DNA from: Polytrichum commune
Lineage: Eukaryota > Streptophyta > Polytrichopsida > Polytrichales > Polytrichaceae
NCBI GenBank assembly: GCA_950295325.1
Contig: OX485805.1
Location: 15,735,501-15,799,500 of the forward strand
Direction of reading: 5' to 3'
Length of the DNA: 64,000 nucleotides
Shown here one piece after another: positions 2,411 to 47,091 of this stretch. The position numbers and the translations under genes are program-made. Every line of letters starts with the position of its first letter. Position 1 is the stretch's first letter. The notes under the pieces are model-generated. The model did no database searches, was not told the DNA's origin, and saw nothing but the letters and a program-made list of their open reading frames with translations.

Positions 2411-2750
2411 TGCTAAAGGCGGAGAACAGTGCATAGAATGCCAACGTGCTTTTTAGAAATTCTCTCCAATTTTTTAAGCCCTGCATGCGTCACATGCACC
2501 TCAGCCGCAGACACCGCGAATCCATTCAATTGCCAAGGGAAGAGTGAATGTGATCACCCTCAAACGTCATCGAACGCTATGCTACGCATGTAGAAATCAT
2601 CCTATATATCACCGCCTTCGATCATAACCTTACTACTTAGTACTTACACTTTAATTGAGCAATGCCGTCGGAGCTTCAAGATTTGTTGTTACATCACGTA
2701 TACGTCACCTTTGGCAGGTGGAAGCTGGGGAGCTACACTCCCATGTACAA

Positions 2751-2902
2751 AATCGGTACACAGTTGACATGTATGCAATCGGTACACAGTTGACTTGATC
2801 GATGACAATAATCGCCCACTGCGGGCGGTAATTAAGTACTCCGAGGTCGGATATACTACGAGGATCAGGAAGTGCTCCGAGATCGCACATACTACGAGGA
2901 TC
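2751..2902 (+). promoter_or_regulatory. Two pairs of direct repeats upstream of the RWPxQGW gene
   Basis: The 18-mer AATCGGTACACAGTTGAC occurs perfectly at 2751-2768 and 2777-2794. A 32-bp segment with the shared cores CTCCGAG and CATACTACGAGGATC (ATACTACGAGGATC in the first copy) occurs at 2835-2866 and 2871-2902. Both pairs lie 320-470 bp upstream of a TATA box that serves the gene at 3530. Each 18-mer contains GTTGAC, the core of the plant W-box bound by WRKY factors (established knowledge). A role in regulation is inference. Confidence 0.4.
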
Positions 2903-3222
2903 GGTAAATCCGTAAGTTAATTGCATAGTCCTTCCGTCTCCCAGCTGGCACAACTTCTGATGTTCTTCTGTGTTTCATTGTCAGTGGACCTCGTCCTCGT
3001 GCTTTACCCTACCTCGACCTGTTCACCACCCTTCCAGTTTGCATGCATGCATCCTCCGGTGGTTACCGTGAGATTTTCTCATAAAATGAAATCCTGACAA
3101 GTCAACGAGCTCCTACACCAGGATTCCATGGAGCATGTGAGCGAAAGAGTAACTTAGTAATTCGCATGCCTGCAACACCGAAAGATCATCTACTCATGCG
3201 TGATTCATGCAGGGCGGCTACC

Positions 3223-3228
3223 TATAAA
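3223..3228 (+). promoter_or_regulatory. TATA box of the RWPxQGW gene
   Basis: TATAAA in the context CCTATAAAACAC lies about 300 bp before the ATG at 3530. It would place transcription start near 3255 and give a 5' leader of about 275 bases. No competing gene is near. No splice sites are needed between here and the start codon. Confidence 0.5.
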
Positions 3229-3529
3229 ACACACTTTCAGGGACGTTGAACATTGTATTCATCGGCTAATTCCTCATCTATCGATTGGAGCCGGCCACAA
3301 ATTTGCAGCTCTCAGTTACTAATCCATTTCTGGACTTCAGAACCTGTACTGCTCTGCACTCCTTATCAATATTCTTGAGCTCATGCACTCCATCACATAC
3401 TCCGAGATTGAGCTTTTAAAACTCTAATTTTTCTCTCCAACTTGCACTTCTAGCTCCAGCAATCAAACCTGAGAGAGGTACTGAATCTCTGCGGACTCAA
3501 GTTGAAGGTCAGGGAAGACAACTGTGACC

Positions 3530-3964
3530 ATGAAGATGTTTCAAATGAAGAAAGCTGCCCAAAAGGTTAAGGTTAGCCCCATGCCTGCTTCCGAGCTCTG
3601 CGAGGTGAGCACCGATAGCAGGAGCAATCTGAGCTGGCTCAGTCGATCTGCAACCAACTTCTTCAGTGTCGACCGTGCGAACAGGTGGCCAGTGCAAGGG
3701 TGGACGACTTCCAATGGTGGCGAGAGGATAAGCTCCAAGATGGTTAACGCGGAGGAGCTCAAGAAGAAGGCAGCCCAAGAGAATCAGCGAGTATTTTCTA
3801 TCAATAAAGCTTCATCAAGGTGGCCGCTACAAGGCTGGTCTACGGATGAAGATCAACCTCGAGTGATGATGAGCGTGAGTCAATTGAAGGATGAAGCTGC
3901 AGCAAGCGATTTGAGGTTTAACTCCAAGAGTACCCGAGCTCAAAGATGGCCGCAGGGTTGGTAG
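3530..3964 (+). CDS. Small basic protein with three RWPxQGW repeats, unrecognised family
   Basis: This is a single-exon gene of 144 residues. An in-frame TGA lies 27 bases upstream, and ACC precedes the first ATG, a good plant context; the stop is TAG at 3962-3964. Three similar blocks are visible. Each ends in the motif: RWPVQGW (52-58), RWPLQGW (97-103) and RWPQGW (139-144), the last lacking one residue and forming the exact C-terminus. Ahead of each motif is a polar stretch, clearest as NAEELKKKAAQ (about 73-83) and SVSQLKDEAAA (about 115-125). The N-terminus is Lys-rich, and I see no signal peptide or membrane segment. It has nothing to do with the RWP-RK transcription factor motif beyond the three letters. 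The repeated Trp-Gly motif suggests a short binding peptide or a structural repeat, but the function is unknown. A TATA box, paired promoter repeats and a stable frame argue for a real gene. Confidence 0.72.
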   Translation: MKMFQMKKAAQKVKVSPMPASELCEVSTDSRSNLSWLSRSATNFFSVDRANRWPVQGWTTSNGGERISSKMVNAEELKKKAAQENQRVFSINKASSRWPLQGWSTDEDQPRVMMSVSQLKDEAAASDLRFNSKSTRAQRWPQGW

Positions 3965-4074
3965 CTAGGCAGCCAGAGTATTGTTGCATGCCGTTGGAGT
4001 GAATCAGGTCATATATATGATGATTTCGAAGGTTATTTAGCTGTATATCATTAAAAAAGGAAATTAATTGTACA

Positions 4075-5320
4075 TTACTCAGCTTCAGTTCCTGAATGCA
4101 AACTCTTCCTGATTTTTGCAGTTGAAGTTGTATTGACAGACGGAATTTATAAAATTAGAGGTCCAGAAATGCATAGAGACGAGTAGATGTTACATTCTTT
4201 CGAAGTAATAAGCTTAAACGATTTTTTCATGAAGAGTCGGAAGATTAGTTTTGAGTAGGAATTGGCGAAGGGAACATATCAGACTTAGAAAATTGAGTGT
4301 GTTCACGACGAATATTTCTGATGACAAGCTTGACTTCGGAGGCCAGAAACATTTAGGCCTGCTCTATGTGTATATGACTTATGTATATACTGTATCTACT
4401 CAGATCATCACTAAAACACTAATGCATTGACGAGAACAGCTACTCCAGTTTGCTGGTTCAGTTGTATTGATAGACAATCTATAGGACAGCTCCGCATGAC
4501 ATTCAGACGTTATATTCACATTCTTTCGAAATAAGTAGTGAGTCTGTCGTCAAGAATCGGCAGATAGGTTTTGAGTAGGATACACATGGCAAAGGGAACA
4601 CATCGGAATCAAGATGAATGTAGAAAGCAACTTACGGATCAAAAGAAGTTGGACACAACCCAGCAGTTAGGGCTGCTCTATGTGTATATGATTGGTTGTA
4701 GTTTCTTTGAGGTAATCTACTGAGATAAGTAGTACCTACATTACCGAATTGACTCGGAGAACTACTTCAATTCTACTATTCGTGTTTGCACTCTTAGTTG
4801 GATTGACAGACAGAATTATCTATAGAACAGGTCCACATGACACCCAGACGTCTAGATGTCACATTCTTTCGGAGTAACAAGTGAGTCTATCGTCAAGAAT
4901 CGGCAGATAATTTTTGAGTAGGATATGGCAAAACCAACATTGCAAAGTTAGAATGAAAGTATTGCAGCAAGTTACTTTGGATCAAAAGATTCACATCCAA
5001 GCAATTAGTCATGCTCTATGTATATATATGATTTGTTGTTGTTTCTTTGAGGTTATCTACTAAGATCAATAGTAAAAACTGCTTCAATTCTAATATTCAT
5101 GTATGCAGAGTACACAGTTGTTATGGTATTAACAGACAGAATCTATCGAAGCGGTCCATTCTTTTGAAGTAGCCAAAAAGTCTTTATTCATGTATTCTGA
5201 TTGTATGTACTGGAGAAACTTTCGGATCAAAAGATTGACATCGCAACAATTAGGCCTGCTCTGTGTATAAAATAAATTTGTTTCACAATTTGGGGTTGCT
5301 TACTGATATCATCTTGAGCA
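4075..5320. repeat. Tandem array of about 330-bp units downstream of the RWPxQGW gene
   Basis: Four diverged units are anchored by a ttgtattgacagacagaa-type sequence at about 4128, 4462, 4797 and 5125, so the periods are about 334, 335 and 327 bp. Other anchors recur in each unit: cattctttcgaagtaa, ggatcaaaagatt, and gctctatgtgtatatgatt. Two of the units also share gtcaagaatcggcagat. The first unit begins about 110 bp after the stop codon, so the gene's 3' untranslated region may run into the array. No open frame persists across units. Confidence 0.75.
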
Positions 5321-7309
5321 ACGTCCCACCATCCCCCCTGTAAGCTGACTCGCCATCTATGAGTAGCTACTGCGGACCCGTTTCCAAACAACTTATTTCA
5401 AACGATTCATATGTTTTCAGAATTTGGTGCATCGATGCATGGTACGTGATTTTTTATGACCTTATCACTTGGACTCACTGATCGACTGAAAAATGAAGCC
5501 CTCGACATCTTGACATAAATGGTTGCATGAAGACTTTGACTGCTGCCAATCAAAACATGGAACGAATGGCATGTCTTCAAGTAAGGTGCAGGGTGAATGT
5601 TGTCCAGCATTGTAATTTTTCAACTTTCAACTTTCTGCATCAACCACCATTGTAATTCTGGCTTTGAGTTCACCTGGTACATGATGCAAGGCAAGTTAGC
5701 AAGGCAGTTCTGAATGGAAATTACCGTAGGGTGCATCTCGGTTGGGCTTTAGAATATCAATTACTCTTCAATCTTTGCCACATGGCAGTCTTATATGGCT
5801 GAGACCCACTTGAAACTCACATGGAAATTGTAATTTGGTATTAAAAGATGTACCAGGAAGCACCTTCCGGTATTCCAAATCCAGACTTACATAACCTCAA
5901 TCACAACCTACTCGATTCATTAGCACTCAACATGACTCAGTAAAGACAGACAATTCAAAGTAAGAAGTTAGCACCCCACGTAATCCCAATAGTGACGGAC
6001 ACTAAATACCATACATAGTGGATTGCCTCCCTCCCTTACTAAAATGATTTAGAAGGGAAAGAACGAAAAACTATGAAAACCACGGTTCCACATCACAACA
6101 GAAGTATTCCCTGGTCACCGACACAGCTCGAGTGCAAAATTGTGATTGTTATTTTCTTCACTTGTATTGACTGCCCCCATGTAAAAGAAACCCACCGCGC
6201 TCATTGGAGTTTGGGGTCCCCTAAGGGCGAGGTTCCATGTACCGCATCTGGTCCATTTTTTGAAAAATAAATGAGCGGGAGGGTGGGAAAAGGGTGGTGC
6301 CATGTGCCCATCCCCCCTCACCCAAGGACCGGTACCCCCCATGGATGGGTGTTCCGCATTGTACGTTGTGCAAGGACCGGTGCCAAAGGACGGGCGGTCT
6401 TAACGGTCAAGAGAAGGACATGTGCCGGTTAGAGAGCTCCGGTGACTGGATCAGCCGGTCACCTTGGGTGTTAAAGGCCACTTTGTTCTTCCAGTACTTT
6501 CTTTTGAAGGGTATTCCTAAGGCTCCTTGTTCTTGCATCACGCACTCTTTGTATACTCAAAGCCTAGTTGTGAGAAGAAATGAAAAGGAAAGAAGAGATA
6601 GTAAATGATTGTATGTTATATCATTAGAGTTCTCATCGTGAACTCATGGATACGTGTATCCAATGATGTTTTCAAGAATTTGGATCTTAATAACAAAAAT
6701 TGCATATATAAAATGCAATGTGATAATAAGTGTCGGGTTTAATAAATTATAAGAAAAAAATCAAAGACTACACAAATGTATCAAAAATCACTTATAAACA
6801 ACATACAATCACAATTTCAACTGAAAGTAAAATATATAAATATTTATGTATTTCCATAGATGATATCCGTATCACCTATGGACACCAAGGACACATAATT
6901 TGAAATTCATTCAATAAATGCACATAAATTCTTGTGCAAGTCAAATATCAAAAGTTAAATCACAATGACCTTCATAACGGTCACCTTCATAAAATGTGAC
7001 ATCTTATTATTCACCAAATTTGGTGAGAAAGTAGGAAATCAGAATGAACCGGCACCCCACATAGAAGAACCCCTCCATTAATTGGGTGACATCACTCATT
7101 TTTTAGATGATGTCACCCATTTCTCATCCACTTAAAAAATGAACCAGCACTAGCACATGGAACTTGGCCCTAAGTAATGTGGAAATAATTTAAGATATGG
7201 ACACCATACTTATAATTGACAACAGCTGCACACTTCTACTAAGAGCTCCAGGAGGACTATCTTCTATTGTCCCCCCCCCCCTTTAATATGACACATTTGG
7301 TTGCGCAAC
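5321..7309. other. Intergenic stretch without a supported gene
   Basis: Short open frames occur (for example at 6294-6608) but start at GTG or lack any recognisable motif. The part from 6200 to 6480 is richer in GC than its surroundings and repeats the word ggaccggt. An 11-base C run sits at 7271-7281, directly before the second pogo-like copy. Confidence 0.4.
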
Positions 7310-8790
7310 AAAGTGTTGTATTATCCAATTGTCACATTCTGCATAGTATGACATTCTAGCTTCAAATGTCGTACTTTTGACAATTTTCAAGAGAATGGTC
7401 ATTTCAATGTAAATTGTCATTTTGTATATACAATGAAGATACATAAGTATGAAATGAACATTTTAATAAAAGCAATATGCTCACAACATCACACAATATG
7501 GAGTTTAACATATATATAGTCTTATGATGTCTTCACTATATCATACACTACAAATTTATTGTCTTCTCATGATGGTTGTTGATGTTGGAAATTGACATCT
7601 TGCTCAATTTATCCAGAAAGGATTGCATGTTCATCACATCTACAACTGAAAACTCCAAAGGATATTTAGATTTGGTAGTAATTGGGCATAGTAATGGGCT
7701 TGAGGAAGCTTGACTATTGGTGTTGGTTGGTCATCCACATCATTCTTCTCCATTGGCTCTTCCCAAATTTAACCCCAAATGGATTTTTCTACCCCATGCC
7801 AAATCCACCAACTCGACCATGTTATACTCTACATCCACAATTTTCTCTCCTACTAGTTGCACATCTTCTTCGATAGGCATTTCTTCACTTTCAAGATTCA
7901 AAGAGGAAATGAGACTTGCCAATTCAGTTGTTGCTTCTTTCATTCTTGATTTCTCATGTGCATGACATATGGCAAAATCGACACTAGGCACTATATTTGT
8001 CAAGCCTGCCTTACATTAGGCACTATATTCATCAAGTCCCGGTGAGTAGAAGAATCAAAGTGAGAGTAGACCCATTCCAAAAGCTTCTTCTCAAACTAAA
8101 TTTTGAATGAAGCAATTATTCCCTTATCTAAGGGTTAAACCCACACTTGTAACATCATGTGATAAGAAAGCCATAGTAATATTGCTCAACTGCAAGGTTG
8201 AAGACCAAATGATTCGCACCTACCAACATGCTCAATGGAATAAGTAACATATTTGTCCATAATTAAAAGTACCTTTCACTTTCAAGATTTGAAATGTACA
8301 TTGAGGTTCATCATCTGATTCTCAAATATATCTCATGTCAACCATGCCATCCGGTCTTCAAACTACCACACATAATTTGTTGGCAACCACCTTCCAAAGC
8401 TTCTTGGGCAAAGAGATTTGAAAATAATCGCAGGGTTCAAATTCTCAATGTGTGTCATGTTTGCACCAGGACAAGAGTGAGTTGTCCTTCTGAATTTTGC
8501 GCCCATAAACTTTCCCTTGGACATGTGTCTTGTTTGGTTGGGACCGCTAAAATAAATCAATATCATCCATATTGTCAACATCTCTCGGTGCCATAACCAA
8601 TGTGGAGGGCGTTAGTGCCTACAAATTTGTGTGCAAGCTATTTTGTGTGGAGACATGGTCATCAACATTAAAATCCGAAATGAAAAGCATTCATCAGTGA
8701 AGAATTTACTCACCTACAGAATCAAGAGCTGAGATGACCCATCCAAATATTGAACAGTAGCATGGGCCCTAGGAGTATAAGTCGGCGAGG
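7310..8790 (-). mobile_element. Decayed pogo/Tigger-like transposon, copy 2, 5'-truncated
   Basis: The reverse complement aligns along its length with copy 1. It carries the same terminal segment (7320-7440), the same tail region (7740-8003, with the acidic block EEMPIEEDVQ and YNMVELVDL), the DDE core at 8180-8310, and the conserved FGRWLPTNYVW segment near 8370-8410. Similarity ends near 8790 without a second terminal inverted repeat, so the 5' end is lost. Frames are broken as in copy 1. The two copies face opposite ways and enclose the RWPxQGW gene and its 330-bp array. Confidence 0.68.
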
Positions 8791-8823
8791 ATTGAAATTT
8801 CCACAACTAACAAATACCTTCAG

Positions 8824-9319: not shown

Positions 9320-12300
9320 CTAATTCATTACACATAGTATGACAAATACAAGAACGATTGGGATGACAAGGGAGTTGACTGATGTCCTCGACGACGCACT
9401 CCTCGCACTCAGCGGACTAGGCGGTGGAGACGGTGACCCACCACCCGCCACACCCAGTGGGCTAGGTGAAGCTAGAGGAACAAGATAAGAAATCAAAGGC
9501 TCGTCGACCACCAAGGATGGGCTCGGCGCGATGCTGTCTGCCCCTTGGCCTATAGTGCTCAGTAGAGTGATGGCTCCGGGCGTTACAGGATAGATACCGT
9601 AATTCGGCATCCCAGTCGATATATCGATCACCTTGTTGCTGCCCAATGGTTGGTAGCAGTAATTATCTGTCAAACAGCATGCACACTAATTAGTCACCAA
9701 AAACAAATGTAAGGTAGGTGCCCTCACCTGTGTGGGTTCAGGAAACCCTGCTTCAGAAAACTAATATGAACATGCACATGAGATGGATGGGTTATTCTCC
9801 GACTAGCACGATTCTTCCACGATACAGAAATCCACATGATTAGTACAATCTCGGTGGTTAGCATATCCTCATCTAGGCCATACCTGCCTTCCTCATGTGA
9901 GCATCTTATTCGTTATCAAAGTGAAAATTCTCAAGCTCGTTAAATCATCATATAGGTTCCCCCAATTTTGTTGACTCTTGAGCCTGGAATGTCTATCATA
10001 TTGTGAGCACATGGTCCAATCCATTTTAAACATATGGTTCCTTTTTCGCACCAGTTCTTGGAGCCACACCTAAGCACATACCATTCAAATACAAGTGTCC
10101 GACTAACACAACTAACCGAATTAGGCACATCTGCCTCAATATCCTACGAGATGCACGCACACGCCTGGAAGAGTCCACCAAACACTTACTGTGAAGGAAG
10201 TTGTACAGTGTAGCTGGGAAGTCGGTGATGAAGCCGTCCACATTGTAATTCAATATGACCGAGTTGATTTGAAGGATAGGATCGCTCCTGTAATCGAATG
10301 CGTACGCGTTGAATTCATTGGACAAGAAGTAGTAGAACACTGTCATGTTCAGTGAGTGTGCCAGGCTGACCGTTGACGTCTTCTTGGTCAAGAAATATGT
10401 ATCGCCGAGGGGATCGACCAAGTGATGGTCGAGAGCTATGATGCTTGCATATTTTCTTATTTCCTGAAAGGCAATAGTTTTTGACATCATTATTCCTCAC
10501 TCCGCCTCAACAGATTTCAAATGTCAGAAACTTGTTCAGGAGGAGACAAAAAAATTGCACTCCAGATACACATGCATTGAAAAGTAGAAAGCATACCTGC
10601 AACACCGTCTGGTCAACAGAAATTGGATCCGCGTATTTCACATCATAGACCAGCTTGACCGCAGGAATTGCGCTAGACAAGGCAGACAACGCAGAACTAT
10701 CTTCGGAAGCCACCAAAATCTTGTCATCCGCATTTGTGAGATTTGCAGCCTTGAGAGATGTCACCACACCGTCCACAACATCTAAGCTGTGCTGGGTGCG
10801 CAAGTAGTAGGCATTCTGCAGGATAACAAAAAAAAAACTCGCAATAGATAAGGGCTCCATTCAAGCAGGTATTTATTACTGCTCTATGTGCTCTGTCAGT
10901 ACAGCACTTAATTGATTCTACCCACGAATGCCTACATTTCTCAGTGCGACACATCATGTTCTCATTGTTAAGCCAGACTATAAATCCTATGTGGCATCTT
11001 CAAAATCGATTATTTCACCACATGGGTGTCCAAAACTGACCTTAACGTACAATACAATACACACCCACAAACTATTGAAGTGAAAACTCCAAATGGATCA
11101 CCTGGATATTGATGTAAATACCAACGCCTGAGGTATTCTTTGCAAAAGCCAGAAACTCGTCCAAAGTCATAATTTTCTCCTTGTCGTTATTAGCAGGGTC
11201 CCTGGTATCATTGTAGGCTTTTTGCCAAGGACTATATATGGTAGCTGCGTAAAGAAACCAGAGCAAACCAGAGTAAACACACAAAAACCAGACAGACTTT
11301 ATTACATCATTCAACAAGAATTTTGCACAAGAATCTCTACGAGGAGGCAGAAACCACAGAAACTTGTGTTGCAACATCATCATCATCTTGGCAGAAACCG
11401 ATGGAACCATATTCTTGGGAAAATTTTGTCCATACCATTTAATGTGCTAATGTTCACCCACGACACATCGAATGTGAAAACCCCCGGTGCGGATTGCAAT
11501 TCGCTGTATGTCATGAGATAGGTTTGATACAGGACCTGGTTTGAAAAAACGTTTGTGGACTTCACCAAGTCCGGATCTTCCCTGCAGATAAGTACCCCAT
11601 CACTTGTTATTTGCACTGTGCAATCGATGTAGTCGGCACCTTCGTCCACTGCCGCAGTGTAAGCAGACAAAGTGCACCCTGGGAAGTCTCCACTTGCACC
11701 GTTGTGTGAAATGACGGTGGGTTGCACTTTCGCTGCGGAAGTTGCTGCTCACAAAACAACATATACAAGTATTAGCATATCAACCCAACATAAATATTTC
11801 AAGTATAACGACATTGAGACAGAAGCCAAGGATAATCAATATGGGTCCTTCTAAACATCTACTCTAAGCTGTTGCCGCACCGAGTATGGAATGTAGTGTA
11901 CTGAGAAACTACAGTTACCCCTTGTATCCTTCCGAGTATCACTCACACTATGTTTGTAGTTCATGTAACCGGATCTTCTAGTCCGGGCATGCAAGAACAT
12001 CTCAGACATGCACATGATAGTCAGCTTTCCTGCAGAGCACCATAGAGGGCTCTCCATTCAGAATCCCACTTGAATCCCATGCGGAAACTACGTTCCAGCA
12101 CTAGTGAAGGGGAATCACTACTAGGCCCCTCTACGATGCATGGGATCAAGCAGAGCAGAAAGAAGCATGGATACATGTGCAACACATGGGACCAACTTCA
12201 GGTGTCAGACTGGTGCAATTGATTTGTTACGTCATAAGAAATGGCATACCTGCGGTTCTAGGGGCGGCCAATTTATAACCATCCGGATAGCAATCTGCAC

Positions 12301-15300
12301 AGACGTCCAGAGGTTAGTGCTTCCTATTATGCCTGTATCATGCCAGAGAGAAGTTTGTACAGAAGATTGCACTGAGACTTTTATTTTTCAATCAGGAATG
12401 TGTCGAGGGAGACAGTCTTAATCTTACGTATGGCTTCCGCTGCAGTGGTTGGAAAGTCTGTAACAAACCCATCCACTGTGAAGTTGTCCCCCATGTATCC
12501 AAGATACTCTCGAACTGAGTCATAACTGTAATTATAACTCGACGGGTAGTTGTCATTGGCAAAACCGTAAACAAAGACAGTCAAATTTGCAGCGTGTGCA
12601 TCTTGAACCAAAGTTGTAGCTGGCCTCAAGTACTCTGTCGAATTGTCCACTGAATACACGAGTTCCTTAGGAACTAGAATACCGTGTGCAAAGGTTGCAA
12701 TATAAGTCAAGTTGCTCATAATATGTCCATAAGTCGCGTTGGTGCTCTCCTCCACCATATCCAAGTCCAAAACCTTGAAGATGAGTACTGTTTGGGTTTT
12801 GGCGGCAGTAGGTGCAAGAAGTCTCAAAATGTTCACTTCCGTAGCTGATAAGTAGTCGGGATAATACATCCTCAAGAAACTAGTCAGATAGTTTGACAAA
12901 CTATTTTTTGCAGGATGACTCTGGTAGAACGAAGGATACTGCACACCAATTAAAATCCGTTTAGTGGTCCCGTGGCATACATGAGGACGGCATAATACAT
13001 CTCATCCTAGGTTGACAGCGCAGTTCAACCCATTAATAGCCGAATGCATGGGTATTGATAATCAACATCAACAACGGTATCCAAGAACCTACCTGTCGGT
13101 ATCAAACTTGTAATACCACTCAAATATTCATATTTGGTGGGTATGTCAAGGTGGGAGGACCTTCGTATACCAGAGTCATTATTTGATACTACCGGGATTT
13201 TACATAAGTAGGAAGGTTCTGGCATAGTATATAGACCCAATGGTATCGAAAACACAGATACCCATGCCCTACTGGTATCCAAAAAAGATGATACCGGCCC
13301 AAGACTGGTTCAAGCCTGCCCACTAACTCGCATACAAACATCCATTACAAAATTAAGACAAACTCACAAGGCCCACAGCAGCTCATCTAGAGTACACTTT
13401 GTACAATCCTGAACACTTTATAAAGAAGTTCCACATAAAGATAGACAAGCGTGTACCTCAATGTTAAGCCAGAAATATAGCCCTCTCCCAGGTACAATTG
13501 GACTGATGACTGTCTCAGGCGATAATACGTAGTCCATTCCATCAAAATACGGTGAACGAGAATTCGTATGCTGGATTGCTGCATCCGCCAAAAAAATTCA
13601 ATTTACCTCACAGAATTAGACTACTAGCAATTTGCCCAAGAATTCAGTCAAAAAAACCAGCTGCTCTTCACCATCGCCATCCATGAAAAACTAAATAGCG
13701 TTCGTAATTGCGTTTGCTCGCACAAGGATACATCAACTACATATCACAAGCCCTATTTAGCATTGGACCGAGGGGTCTGTAATTCACACACATTAGCACT
13801 TTAAGATCGACACCAGTTGAGTTGCACACGAAAACACACCAGTGAGGTTTTGAAGTTGTTTCGATGTGTAATCGACTGAGAAGTAGCCGGTTAAAGTCTG
13901 TCCTTGGATCACATAAGTGCTCTGAACAGTCGTGTTTGTAAGAATGATAGTGATGTTTGTTGTCTCGCTTAAATTCCATCCTTGCCGACAGATTCCTTGG
14001 TTATCCTTGGTGAGTTGCAAATCACAGAGAAGTCCCAAAGGCAATGCAGTGCTGTTCACAGCGTCATTGTAGGAAGTGGATGTTTGGTCGGGGTATATGC
14101 CTGAAGAACCGCCGTTGGCAATAACTATAGGAGCAGTCTCTGCAAGCATCAAACCATAAATCGATCAAAAAGGTCAGAACCAAGTACCGGTACGTTGACG
14201 TCAACACAAAATGCTCAAATCTCAAAACACTGCCAAAACCCTTCCTCCAAAGAAGGAAAACTTTGCAGATAGAATCCAGTCGACATGGTCGGATCCGACC
14301 GTGAAACCTAGGCAGACTTCCCCATAACAGAGATAAAATTGAGAAGACTAGCCCCTGAACATAGATCGAGAGATGCGGAACTGTTTTAAAGAGGGATCCG
14401 GATAACAGAGCTAATTCAGGAAGCACTCGAGGAGACTGGTACCTGTAATCGACCAGATACAAACACAGATTTCCATGAAGAAATCGTTGACGAGGGATTG
14501 TAACAGACTGGCGCACCAAACTAGAAGTTGAGCTTCCCCCTAGGTAAAAATCTCTCCACGGCCTATTTTAAGTACAAAATCAGAGAAATGGCTCACACTA
14601 GACTACGATTGCCGGAACGGGTGCTCAAGTCACCATTGGCACATTGCGCAACCGAATTGACAAGAGATGAGCATCTCGTTCTCACCGAGACGCGGTGAAT
14701 GAGATTAAACCGCTCAGGGTAAGCCAGAATCCGAGTACAAACTCCCTCCGAAACCACTCCTGTCATCAGGCACACATTTCGAACTGATTCTATTCAAACA
14801 CGACCCGCCATACCTGACGGTGTGATGATACAGATCTATAGAAACTCCCTGCTGCATTCCTTACACGCGCATACAATGGTTTCATCACCTGCATTCAGAG
14901 GGCTAGAGACGGACAATGCCGTAGATCCACCAACGACCAATGCCCACAAATTTGCAACCGCATACTCGTGGAGTCTACAACAACCGCATGTGGTAGTCTC
15001 CTGATATCTCCTGATTCCAGAGCGAGCGAACGAGCCTCTTGAAGAGGCGCTACCTGTATTGCAGGCAACCATCGACACTGCAGACCCATTGTTGGTTTGA
15101 GGGCCTCCACAAGGCGCCAAGCTTCGATTTGTGTTGCGGACCATCTTGCTCAAACTTTCGAATGCCCGTCCGTCCAGGAGCAATCGATCGTGCGAAACTC
15201 AATGCCGCCTCGAATCCCCTCAAACGAAAACCCAGTAGAACCAGAAGTAGAAGAAAGAAAACTTTCACACCAAAAATGCCCATATTTCATCTCCAGACCG

Positions 15301-22650: not shown

Positions 22651-23069
22651 CTACCCCTCGGTCAGTGTTAGGAAACCAAATCCCAGCTTGATGTACTAGA
22701 ATTCAACTTTCTCTAATTACCAAATTCATTTTCTTCAATGCACTTTTAAGTACGTGGGTCTGTAAGAATATCCGACACGAGTGTTATGGTGTTTTTGAGC
22801 GATCTTGAAACTTGAGATTCACAAGCTTTCTCAATAAGTTAACGTACCCATGGGTAGGTTGTCTACATACAAATGCAAGTAACTTACGAAGCAACAAGGC
22901 TACCGTAGCTTAGCATGCGGCTGGGGTGAAACCAACATGTACATTGGTTCCCTTGAGGCAAGGGTTTAGGCATCCAACAAGGAACTAGTGTATGGGTTGG
23001 TTCGCCCAAATCCTAGCATGCATGGTGCTTATAACACGAGAATTGACGGACATATCATTGGGTGGGTTA

Positions 23070-23205
23070 AGGGTTAGTTTCCATGTAGGTTGTTCGTCCA
23101 CCAGATTCTATTGGAAAATGTAGATTCCACAATTTATTGGATATGCGGAATCTACATTTCCACTAGAATCTGGTGGACGAACAACCTACATGGAAACTAA
23201 CCCTA
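23070..23205. repeat. Hairpin 1 of the tandem units
   Basis: The left arm runs from agggttagtttccatgtagg and the right arm ends cctacatggaaactaaccct. Pairing extends about 60 bp on each side around a short loop near 23137. The outer arm words are ggttgttcgtccacc and ggtggacgaacaacc, an exact complement pair. Confidence 0.85.
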
Positions 23206-23561
23206 AGCTAGCTACTTGTGCAACATCTCCATTCAGTAACTCCACTCTGAAAATACATGTACTATAATTTTCTTTGTTGACTGGAATCCAGCTTCCTCCA
23301 TTTACCTAGTTCATTTTCTTCATTGCACTTTGTAAGTTAGTACATGGGTCTGTAAGAATATCTGACACGAGTGTTCTGGTGTGTGTTTGAGTGATCTTGA
23401 AACTTGAGATTCATCACAAGCTTTCTCAGTAAGTTAACGTACCCATGGGTAGGTTGTCTACATACAAATGCAAGTAACTTGCGAAGCAGCCAGACTACCG
23501 TAGCATAACATGCACGGTGCTTACGACATGAAAAATCTTGGGCGTATCGTTGGGTGGGTTA

Positions 23562-23685
23562 AGGGTTAGTTTCCACGTAGGCCGCTCGCCCACCAGATTC
23601 TAGTGGAAATGTAGATTCCACCATGTAGATTCTACATTTCCACTAGAATCTGATGGGCGAGTGGCTTGCATGGAAACTAACCCTA
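23562..23685. repeat. Hairpin 2 of the tandem units
   Basis: The arms carry gattctagtggaaatgtaga and its complement around a very short loop, with outer arms gccgctcgcccacc and gatgggcgagtggc. The outer arms differ from hairpin 1 on both sides in a matching way. Confidence 0.85.
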
Positions 23686-24036
23686 AGTTAGCTACTTGTG
23701 CAACCTCTCCATTCAGTAACTCCACTCTGAAAATACATGTACTATAACTTGCTTATTTGACTGGAATTCAGCTTCCTCCACTTACCTGGTTCATCTTCTT
23801 CATTGCACTTTTAAGTACATGGGTCTGTAAGAATATCCAACACGAGTGCTCTGGTGTGTGTTTGAGTGATCTTGAAACTTGAGATTCACAGGCTTTCTCA
23901 GTAAGTTAACGTACCCATGGGTAGGTTGTCTACATACAAATGCAAGTGACTTGCGAAGCAGCCAGCAGACTACCGTATCATAGCATGCACGGTGCTTACA
24001 ACATGAAAAATCTTGGGCGTATCGTTGGGTGGATTA

Positions 24037-24161
24037 AGGGTTAGTTTCCACGTAGGCCGCTCGCCCACCAGATTCTAGTGGAAATGTAGATTCCACCATG
24101 TAGATTCTACATTTCCACTAGAATCTGGTGGGCGAGTGGCTTGCATGGAAACTAACCCTAA
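24037..24161. repeat. Hairpin 3 of the tandem units
   Basis: It is almost the same as hairpin 2, with ggtgggcgagtggc in the right arm, so pairing is better by one base. The loop is the few bases around ccaccatgtag at about 24096. Confidence 0.85.
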
Positions 24162-24451
24162 GTTAGCTACTTGTGCAACATCTCCATTCAGTAACTCCAC
24201 TCTGAAAATACATGTACTGTAACTTGCTTATTTGACTGGAATTCAGCTTCTTCCACTTACCTAGTTCATCTTCTTCATTGCACTTTTAAGTACATGGGTC
24301 TGTAAGAATATCCAACACGAGTGTTCTGGTGTGTTTTTGAGTGATCTTGAAACTTGAGATTCACAAGCTTTCTCAGTACGTTAACTTTCCCATGGGTAGG
24401 TTGTCTACATGGAAATGCAAGTAACTTGCGAAGCAGCAAGGCTCCTGTAGC

Positions 24452-24784
24452 TTAGCATGCATGGTGCTTGCTAACAACATGCGAAAAGACGGGCGTATTA
24501 TTGGGTGGGTTAATTAGATATTTGTGGAGCAGCTTTATACAGTAACTCAGCTCTCGAAATAACACTTTGGAGGTCCTTCTCCTCTGCCAGATGCTGCTAA
24601 TGAGGAGATTTTGTTGAGGGGTCAAGTTTGAAATCCTTGCCGAGGCGGCGAGGCTAATGTTGTTTGAGTCCAACAAATATTGTATCAATACCATGTATTC
24701 CGTTTTCATACCACTGAGGGCCACTTCACACCAGTGATCGGGGAGATTTTTGGGCATAATCGGTTGAGATCCTAGTGTTTGCAA
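24452..24784 (-). other. Open frame of about 110 codons between repeats, unrecognised
   Basis: The minus strand is open here, with candidate in-frame ATGs near 24757, 24696 and 24681. The segment LVANPPP-like repeats are absent and no domain is recognised. The frame crosses the family B terminal word near 24720, so at least its start is repeat-derived. The Ser/Leu/Arg-rich middle could be a captured gene fragment. Evidence is weak. Confidence 0.2.
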
Positions 24785-42930: not shown

Positions 42931-43025
42931 CAATGCACACACAATGCACCAATGCATACACAATGCACACACAATGCACCAATGTACACACAATGCACAC
43001 ACAATGTACCAATGCACACACAACA
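42931..43025. repeat. Minisatellite of cacacaatgcaccaatg type
   Basis: The words cacacaatgcac and caatgcac alternate at least five times, with units of 12 and 19-20 bp that combine into a period of about 32-36 bp. It lies just upstream of the minus-strand frame above. Confidence 0.85.
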
Positions 43026-44999: not shown

Positions 45000-47091
45000 A
45001 TGAGTCGCCAGACCCCGTTTCAGACCAAGCACAAGCTAGAATATGGCCTGAAGATTGTCAAATGTTCACCATTACGCGTTGTCGAGACTGTGCAATGCCA
45101 ATTCTGTGTCCACAACGGCCGAAAGACCCGTGTTGGACCAGGAATCAAACGCAAATGTACCAATAACACGAAGATCTACGCATTACTGTTTCGACCATAG
45201 TAGTACCGTCAACACCTCACCTCCCAACACACCAACGATCAGGCCAACTACCAGCTCCTCGATCTTGAGTCGAAGAAGAAATACTTTGATGATAAGGAAG
45301 TCTTTGGGATTCATCAGTTTGTGGGCAACGCCAAGGACACCCTCAAATTCGTCATTCGTCAATCTAGTATTATCAACTCCCTCATCGGCGAGTTGTTCTT
45401 TAATCCAGAGCACGACGAGGATGATGACGATTCTACGCCGATCACCAAGACGAATACCATTAAATTGTTCAACATTCAAGAAGATGGGTCATATCTTGTC
45501 ACGATCAAGAACCCGCTTTGTTTATGGCTTGCTATTGACCATACCTCCCTTGGGCTCTCGATTCACCAAACCGCCACCGTCATCACCTAGCATTGAAATC
45601 GTTGCAAGAATCACAAACTTGCAAGCTTGAACAACCACATGGTAGGTCAGTTTGTCCACGTCCTCGTCATTGTCGCTCTTGAAATGATCGCCAACATGAT
45701 CACAGATCCGTCTGTGTGGGCATTTGCGTTGGTGGCGGATGCTTCAACTCATTTTGGGGTTCCGATGCTCGATTGTGTTTAAACGGGAATTTGATCAATC
45801 TTCATTTGGTTCTCGTTCCATTTTTTGAATGCCACATAGTTGTCAACTACGTCAAACTAATGTTGGCGATTCTTGATGCAATGTATTCATTGTGGTGTGA
45901 CAAACTCATTTCAATAAGCTCTGATGGAGAAAATATAATGACTACCAGTCAAACTGGAGATGTCGTCAAATTGCTTGAAGATCAGTGCACGAATCCCATT
46001 CTACGAATATGGTATGTTGCACATCAGTTAGACCTCGTTGTCAAGAAAACCACTCGATCTATTGACGATGGCGTTTTCTACAAAATTGGCCATTTTTTTT
46101 TCTATCCATCTGCGTGCGCAAGTGAACCTATTTACTGAATTGGGATCAAAATGCCCCAACGATACCACCCGATGGATCGCGTTCGGCGAAATGTTGCAAT
46201 GGAAATTGAAACACCGTCACTGTCTGCTTCAACATGTGCAAGATAAGCAACCTTTACAAGCTCCTTTGGGTGTGTGGTGGATTATTGTTGTAGCATTATC
46301 GCCTATCTTCGATTCCATAAGCACTACCGTGGCCACAATACAAGCGCGAAACTTGGTCATTCCGCAACAGCACCAGCCAATTTGATCTCTAGCCTCTGCA
46401 TCAATTTCGGTGTCCGCACAACGGCCGATAATTTGCTGGTTGGCGACAGTTGTGTCAACCGGCGATTGGTGGCTGGAGAAAATGTCAGTTGCCTTGCATA
46501 TCCAAGACCAGGGATCCTAGGCTTGCGATCTATTCAAAAGTTTTCTTGATGACGACAAGATTTGCATTGTGAAGGATATCGGAATTTTTGTCAAATGGAT
46601 CGTGTCTGATGGTTCGAAGGTGTAAGCTGAACGCGACCACAACAACGCCGCCAGGAACAATTGAGGCAGTGCCTGTCATGCTGGCCGAATTAGTAAAGAT
46701 GCGAACATGTGCTTTCATTAGCGATGTCCTTGATCCGTTCCGTCAACATTTGGAGAAGTTTTGGTCGGCTGAACAAATGAAGAAAACTGAGTGTGATCAT
46801 AAGGGTATGCTCTTCGCCTACGCCCGCAAACCCTCAATCAAGGAAATTTTGGATGCTCACCATCACAAAATGTTCTTCAATGACACGTGGGGCAGTGTCA
46901 AGACCCGCTTCCTCACCTTGTGCCAATTTTGTGGCGGATTGGCATTTGCGTTCCCCAACACTACGTCAGTTGAATCCGATTTCTCTGTGGTAAAGTGGGA
47001 GAAAGATACATATCGTACGGGCTCAACCAACCTACCCTTCGCAAGAGTAATGCATTCCAAGCAATTTGACGTTTTAAGCAACCTTTTCTAG
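45000..47091 (+). pseudogene. Decayed hAT-superfamily transposase
   Basis: One frame runs from ATG 45000 to 45590 and is broken only by two adjacent TAG codons at 45198-45203. Its early part has a CxxC pair (QCQFC) suited to a BED-type zinc finger, then the acidic block HDEDDDD. Later frames hold ISSDGENIMTTSQTGDVVKL and WYVAHQLDLVVKKT (45920-46060), the usual hAT core with its His-Gln-Leu-Asp-Leu segment, then TRWIAFGEML. The end has FCGGLAFAFPNTTSVESDFSV (46930-46990), a C-terminal dimerisation region, and stops at 47091. At least three frameshifts separate the parts. The family carries out cut-and-paste transposition with 8-bp target duplications. This copy cannot make an active enzyme. 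Confidence 0.85.

Follow-up and report, generated by a model that had tools for sequence, protein, structure and literature searches.

In Chlamydomonas, the Rubisco-binding motif is [D/N]W[R/K]xx[hydrophobic], and the RWP-RK transcription factors (NLP and RKD) carry the sequence RWPxRK within the RWP-RK domain. The linker EPYC1 is described as a disordered repeat protein whose contacts with Rubisco are weak and multivalent. The Chlamydomonas motif has, according to a review, not been found in algal lineages outside Volvocales (PMC10473226). For the diatom Rubisco linker PYCO1, the accessible part of the report describes a mostly disordered chain with a pI of 10.03 and a repeated KWSP motif, in which the tryptophan is needed for binding (PMC10288592).

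The locus described here is an intact plus-strand frame of 144 codons in a stretch of 64,000 nucleotides (the window) in which the motif RWPxQGW is present three times. We read this frame, with about even confidence, as a nuclear gene for a small, basic, mostly disordered adaptor that would be multivalent by virtue of three tryptophan-based linear motifs. The encoded protein shares with the Rubisco linkers a basic chain in which several short tryptophan motifs are regularly spaced, and is likened to EPYC1 as a repeat protein with multiple putative contacts. Its similarity to PYCO1, judged from the accessible part of that report, extends to the short Trp/Pro motif in repeats and to the isoelectric point (RWPxQGW and pI 10.1 compared to KWSP and pI 10.03; PMC10288592). 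However, PYCO1, in the same description, consists of six repeats of about 80 residues each except for one half repeat, has the motif in the form KWSPR/Q and a predicted transit peptide, and belongs to a red-type plastid. The likeness is one of design only, with no sequence relation established. Neither KWSP nor [D/N]W[R/K]xx[hydrophobic] is present in any of the seven tryptophan contexts of the protein (SWLS, RWPV, GWTT, RWPL, GWST, RWPQ and the terminal GW), and membership in the Rubisco linkers is unlikely. With the RWP-RK factors, the protein has the letters RWP alone in common; membership in that family was rejected, there being no RK after RWP and no match to the RWP-RK domain.

Results

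Coding frame and gene structure

The features of the locus are listed in Table 1. The start codon had been described, in a sequence-only reading of this DNA, as bounded by an upstream stop and preceded by a TATA box, and both elements were recovered, namely, the in-frame TGA at 3503 and TATAAAA at 3223–3229. In a narrow scan for splice patterns, positions 2423 to 4100 gave no donor and positions 3506 to 3530 no acceptor; inspection by eye, however, revealed a GTAAGT at 2912 and a TTCTAG at about 3453 that the scan had overlooked. An intron in the leader, about 540 bp long, may connect these two sites, in which case the putative TATA box would lie inside the intron, and an upstream coding exon of the frame may exist as well.

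Table 1 Features of the RWPxQGW locus; positions are those of the window.
Feature	Position	Strand	Remarks
Decayed transposon, inverted copies	878-2422 and 7277-8803	+ and -	73.7% identical over ~1.55 kb
Five separate RY (CATGCA/TGCATG) sites	2482..3387		2482, 2493, 3040-3051, 3206, 3382
Putative TATA box, TATAAAA	3223..3229	+	~300 bp upstream of ATG; read from sequence
Short upstream ORF, 14 codons	3383..3427	+	in putative 5' leader
In-frame TGA upstream	3503..3505	+	bounds frame unless a splice acceptor lies between TGA and ATG
Coding frame	3530..3964	+	144 aa + TAG stop; basic, hydrophilic, Ser/Ala/Lys/Arg/Gln-rich, 7 Trp
Motif 1, RWPVQGW	3683..3703	+	residues 52-58
Repeated block before and into motif 2	3740..3826	+	residues 71-99; helix drawn 74-90, very low confidence
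Motif 2, RWPLQGW	3818..3838	+	residues 97-103
Matching block before and into motif 3	3866..3952	+	residues 113-141; helix drawn 116-125, very low confidence
Motif 3, RWPQGW	3944..3961	+	residues 139-144; exact C-terminus, one residue shorter

Repeats in the protein

The three motif copies noted in the sequence-only reading start at residues 52, 97 and 139; that reading had placed the last, shortened copy (RWPQGW, residues 139–144) correctly at the exact C-terminus; of the two spacings given there, 45 residues was reproduced, whereas the second, put at about 41, measures 42. The similar polar helices claimed ahead of motifs 2 and 3 hold up as a repeated block, given that residues 71–99 align without gaps with residues 113–141 (BLOSUM62 score 49), but as helices they are drawn only in a model with a mean pLDDT of 36.8. 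Units 2 and 3 repeat one another along most of their extent. Unit 1 exceeds them in length, and its pre-motif part is only loosely alignable. The best ungapped match of the protein to itself (score 58) was reached in none of the 1000 shuffles (shuffle maximum 56), and the words RWP and QGW are each found three times, with two or more such three-letter words appearing in 26 of 20,000 shuffles.

When all 62 stop-to-stop frames of at least 100 amino acids in the window were ranked by self-similarity (60 shuffles each), this frame was third (z-score 7.19). The frames ranked first, second and fourth all overlap the DNA minisatellite at 42931–43023, which comprises 3.1 copies of a 30-bp unit and is located inside a 274-codon minus-strand frame that shows the strongest self-similarity of the 62 and has no Pfam match. 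Self-similarity of the frames at 42.3–43.2 kb is accompanied by a DNA minisatellite, unlike that of the frame at 3530–3964. No convincing further repeat units were identified elsewhere in the window (next best E-value 2.7).

Third-position variation and selection

No DNA repeats were reported inside positions 3530–3964, either by Tandem Repeats Finder or by a repeat search with a minimum length of 25; the repeat is visible in the protein only, and an origin of the motif repeats from a DNA minisatellite was dropped for this reason. Among the 18 nucleotide columns of RWP and QGW (the variable residue was left out), 4 vary among the three copies, and all 4 are third codon positions (p = 0.0049, a value that rests on these four varying columns only and is biased towards selection because agreement in amino acids was the basis on which the motif was chosen). 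In the same six codons, units 2 and 3 differ by 3 synonymous and 0 nonsynonymous changes, and units 1 and 3 by 4 and 0, respectively. The restriction of motif variation to third positions points to old duplications held by selection on the peptide. In the spacers of units 2 and 3 (29 codons), 16, 12 and 18 differences were found at codon positions 1, 2 and 3, respectively (pS = 0.86, pN = 0.45), a weak selection signal.

Protein properties

The protein has a pI of 10.1, a net charge of +9 and a GRAVY of −0.84, and includes seven tryptophans and one cysteine. By a crude measure, the highest Kyte-Doolittle mean over 15 residues (0.41), there is no hydrophobic leader or membrane segment. The AlphaFold2 model obtained from the single sequence is compatible with a disordered chain but too poor to show either disorder or the helices that it draws at residues 74–90 and 116–125; single-sequence models are often poor, so that low pLDDT is no proof of disorder.

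Searches for relatives

Pfam yielded no family at E-values up to 10, for the whole protein as well as for the three repeat units, and this holds for the RWP-RK, Ago-hook and LEA/dehydrin families. In NCBIfam, a match to BhsA was rejected as chance (E = 0.042, 14.4 bits compared to a cut-off of 90). A phmmer search of the PDB with the whole protein found nothing at E-values up to 10, and the two matches of a profile of the repeat unit, a TK2203 protein (E = 0.64) and a glutathione S-transferase fusion (E = 1.1), were taken as chance; the fusion chain contains WPLQGW. Plasmids gave one record at an E-value of 7, and phages gave two records of a single phage, likewise at 7, none of them convincing. 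Exact short peptides of the protein, which would detect close relatives only, gave 52 pattern matches in contigs of prokaryote genomes and 9 in viral contigs, and a pattern from the block preceding the motif, not from RWPxQGW itself, gave 37 in viral contigs; none of these was confirmed. In open papers, RWPLQGW, RWPVQGW and RWPQGW were not found, unlike WPLQGW, nor were six other spellings of the motif, and the accessible text of the literature on tryptophan-repeat moss proteins, Rubisco linkers, AGO-binding GW motifs, ABI3/RY and LEA composition mentions no RWPxQGW family. The statement that no described family has this layout is accordingly borne out for Pfam and the PDB, with one NCBIfam match far below the cut-off.

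Surroundings in the window

Judging from GC content (0.34–0.50 by 2-kb block) and gene content, the window looks like nuclear plant DNA. Pieces of genes for GDPD (glycerophosphodiester phosphodiesterase), Mpv17/PMP22, a retroelement integrase (rve) and a DDE_1 transposase are present; in a Pfam scan of 10 frames, 5 had a match and 5 did not. Rfam at gathering scores and ARAGORN with the bacterial code found nothing in the window. The two GDPD pieces (11386–12944, minus strand) belong, by eye, to a longer intron-bearing gene at approximately 9.3 to 14.2 kb. Starting 150 bp past the stop codon of the 144-codon frame, a tandem array of four degenerate units, each about 335 bp long (4115–5282), shows 68–80% identity over the aligned pieces; elsewhere, a 475-bp unit is present in three tandem copies with 90% matches (23014–24469), and frames at 45716–47091 (plus strand) resemble, by eye, remains of a hAT transposase, two of them having been scanned with no Pfam match.

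Alternative readings

The protein could be a lineage-specific stress or desiccation protein in the manner of hydrophilins and LEA proteins, whose gene an ABI3-type B3 factor would switch on at RY elements and whose repeats would stabilise membranes or proteins in drying; we consider this unlikely. The resemblance includes a hydrophilic, small-residue-rich chain (Ser, Ala, Lys and Gln), repeated segments and RY-rich upstream DNA. In the 1107 bp upstream, 8 RY matches at 5 separate sites were counted compared to 0.91 expected, a number that was reached in none of 500 simulated sequences and in 4 of 1258 overlapping scanning windows, all 4 of which overlap this same stretch, the densest 1.1 kb of the window. 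For the Em genes of Physcomitrella, the available part of one report states that the RY motif takes part in PpABI3 regulation (PMC5601040), and the RY-dense DNA is a weak pointer to ABI3-type control here. However, four of the eight matches form one CATGCATGCATGC-type run, and RY is one of ten element types counted; the ABRE core is present twice (1.73 expected), and no full ABRE, DRE or heat-shock element was found upstream. The guess of a stress protein made from the sequence is weakly favoured by the RY elements but not by ABRE, DRE or heat-shock elements, which are not in excess. The composition also argues against a classical LEA protein: most hydrophilins, according to the accessible part of a survey, are devoid of Trp and Cys (PMC3691520), whereas this protein has seven and one, respectively, and matches no LEA family.

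It is rather unlikely that the protein belongs to a family to which plant databases already give a name, but which is absent from Pfam, the PDB and the open text searched, in which case its function would be that of the family. The absence of a Pfam match and of the RWPxQGW spellings in open papers, where only WPLQGW was encountered, speaks against such a family. However, the negative results say little, as they come from Pfam, NCBIfam, the PDB and collections of plasmids, phages, prokaryote genomes and viral contigs, and not from plant sequence collections.

That the frame is not a gene, but an ORF in transposon-rich DNA that exists by chance or is decaying, appears quite improbable, even though several observations fit this possibility. 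A stop-free run of 152 codons or more arose in 24 of 200 sequences of 9 kb simulated at first order; thus, ORF length is no evidence for a gene. The frame is flanked, at about 1.1 and 3.3 kb, by inverted copies of a decayed transposon that we take, by eye, to be Tigger/pogo, the left copy retaining remains of a DDE_1 transposase (22.6 bits compared to a cut-off of 22). Capture of the gene in a single transposon with long terminal inverted repeats was considered and dropped: the arms align and the left one contains DDE_1 remains, but two copies in opposite orientation are the simpler explanation. GC content at codon positions 1, 2 and 3 of the frame is 0.47, 0.49 and 0.58, unlike that of the control gene pieces (two GDPD and one Mpv17), where the second position is lowest (0.35–0.42) and the third is at 0.47–0.53; the third base is G-rich in the frame, whereas the GDPD pieces prefer T and C. 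This difference is perhaps due to the unusual composition of the protein. Against a non-coding origin, the third-position GC exceeds the overall GC of both flanks (0.46 upstream, 0.39 downstream), and the three motif copies, not reported as DNA repeats, are preserved through synonymous changes. We regard the frame as a probable gene for which there is no Pfam family.

An Argonaute-binding GW protein, with the three GW dipeptides acting as an AGO hook, is a very improbable alternative. For a plant-virus P1 protein, the available part of the report describes AGO1 binding that needs three WG/GW motifs in a context rich in Ala, Ser, Glu, Asn and Asp (PMC2904775). In the protein analyzed here, two of the three GW precede polar stretches that contain Ser, Thr, Asn, Asp or Glu. 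However, the conserved core, RWPxQGW, is longer than GW, the third GW forms the last two residues of the chain with no context after it, and there is no match to the Ago-hook domain of Pfam.

Finally, a secreted precursor that would release multiple RWPxQGW peptides, a repeat-peptide role raised in the sequence-only reading, is scarcely credible despite the short, regularly spaced motif, there being no hydrophobic leader by simple hydropathy (highest mean 0.41) and no dibasic site adjoining any of the motifs.

Discussion

The preservation of the motif through synonymous change, the drift of the polar spacers and the lack of a known domain are together what one would expect of a multivalent linear-motif protein. 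PYCO1, with a tryptophan motif required for binding, is a case in which such a design has been tested (PMC10288592). Of the roles proposed from the sequence, an array of short linear motifs fits best with a basic, hydrophilic chain that matches no folded domain, and retains the motif while its spacers drift. The adaptor that we propose would have arisen from a unit of about 35–45 residues, duplicated internally long ago and consisting of a short polar helix, a Ser/basic spacer and RWPxQGW. The three RWPxQGW sequences would then represent one and the same linear binding motif built around tryptophan, the spacers would serve as tethers between the copies, and the three copies would raise the affinity for an oligomeric or abundant partner, or cross-link it.

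A more specific form of this proposal, by analogy with the algal Rubisco linkers, is that RWPxQGW is an undescribed tryptophan sticker of a disordered scaffold specific to a plant lineage, whose copies would cross-link an oligomeric partner, such as a condensate or an enzyme complex of the plastid or cytosol, in a design convergent with those linkers; we regard this extension as improbable.

If the protein is confined to a single species or has already been named, it would be an ordinary orphan or family member. If, however, relatives with a varying number of RWPxQGW copies exist, the motif would define a small plant family without a Pfam model, and RWPxQGW would be a compact, directly testable binding peptide.
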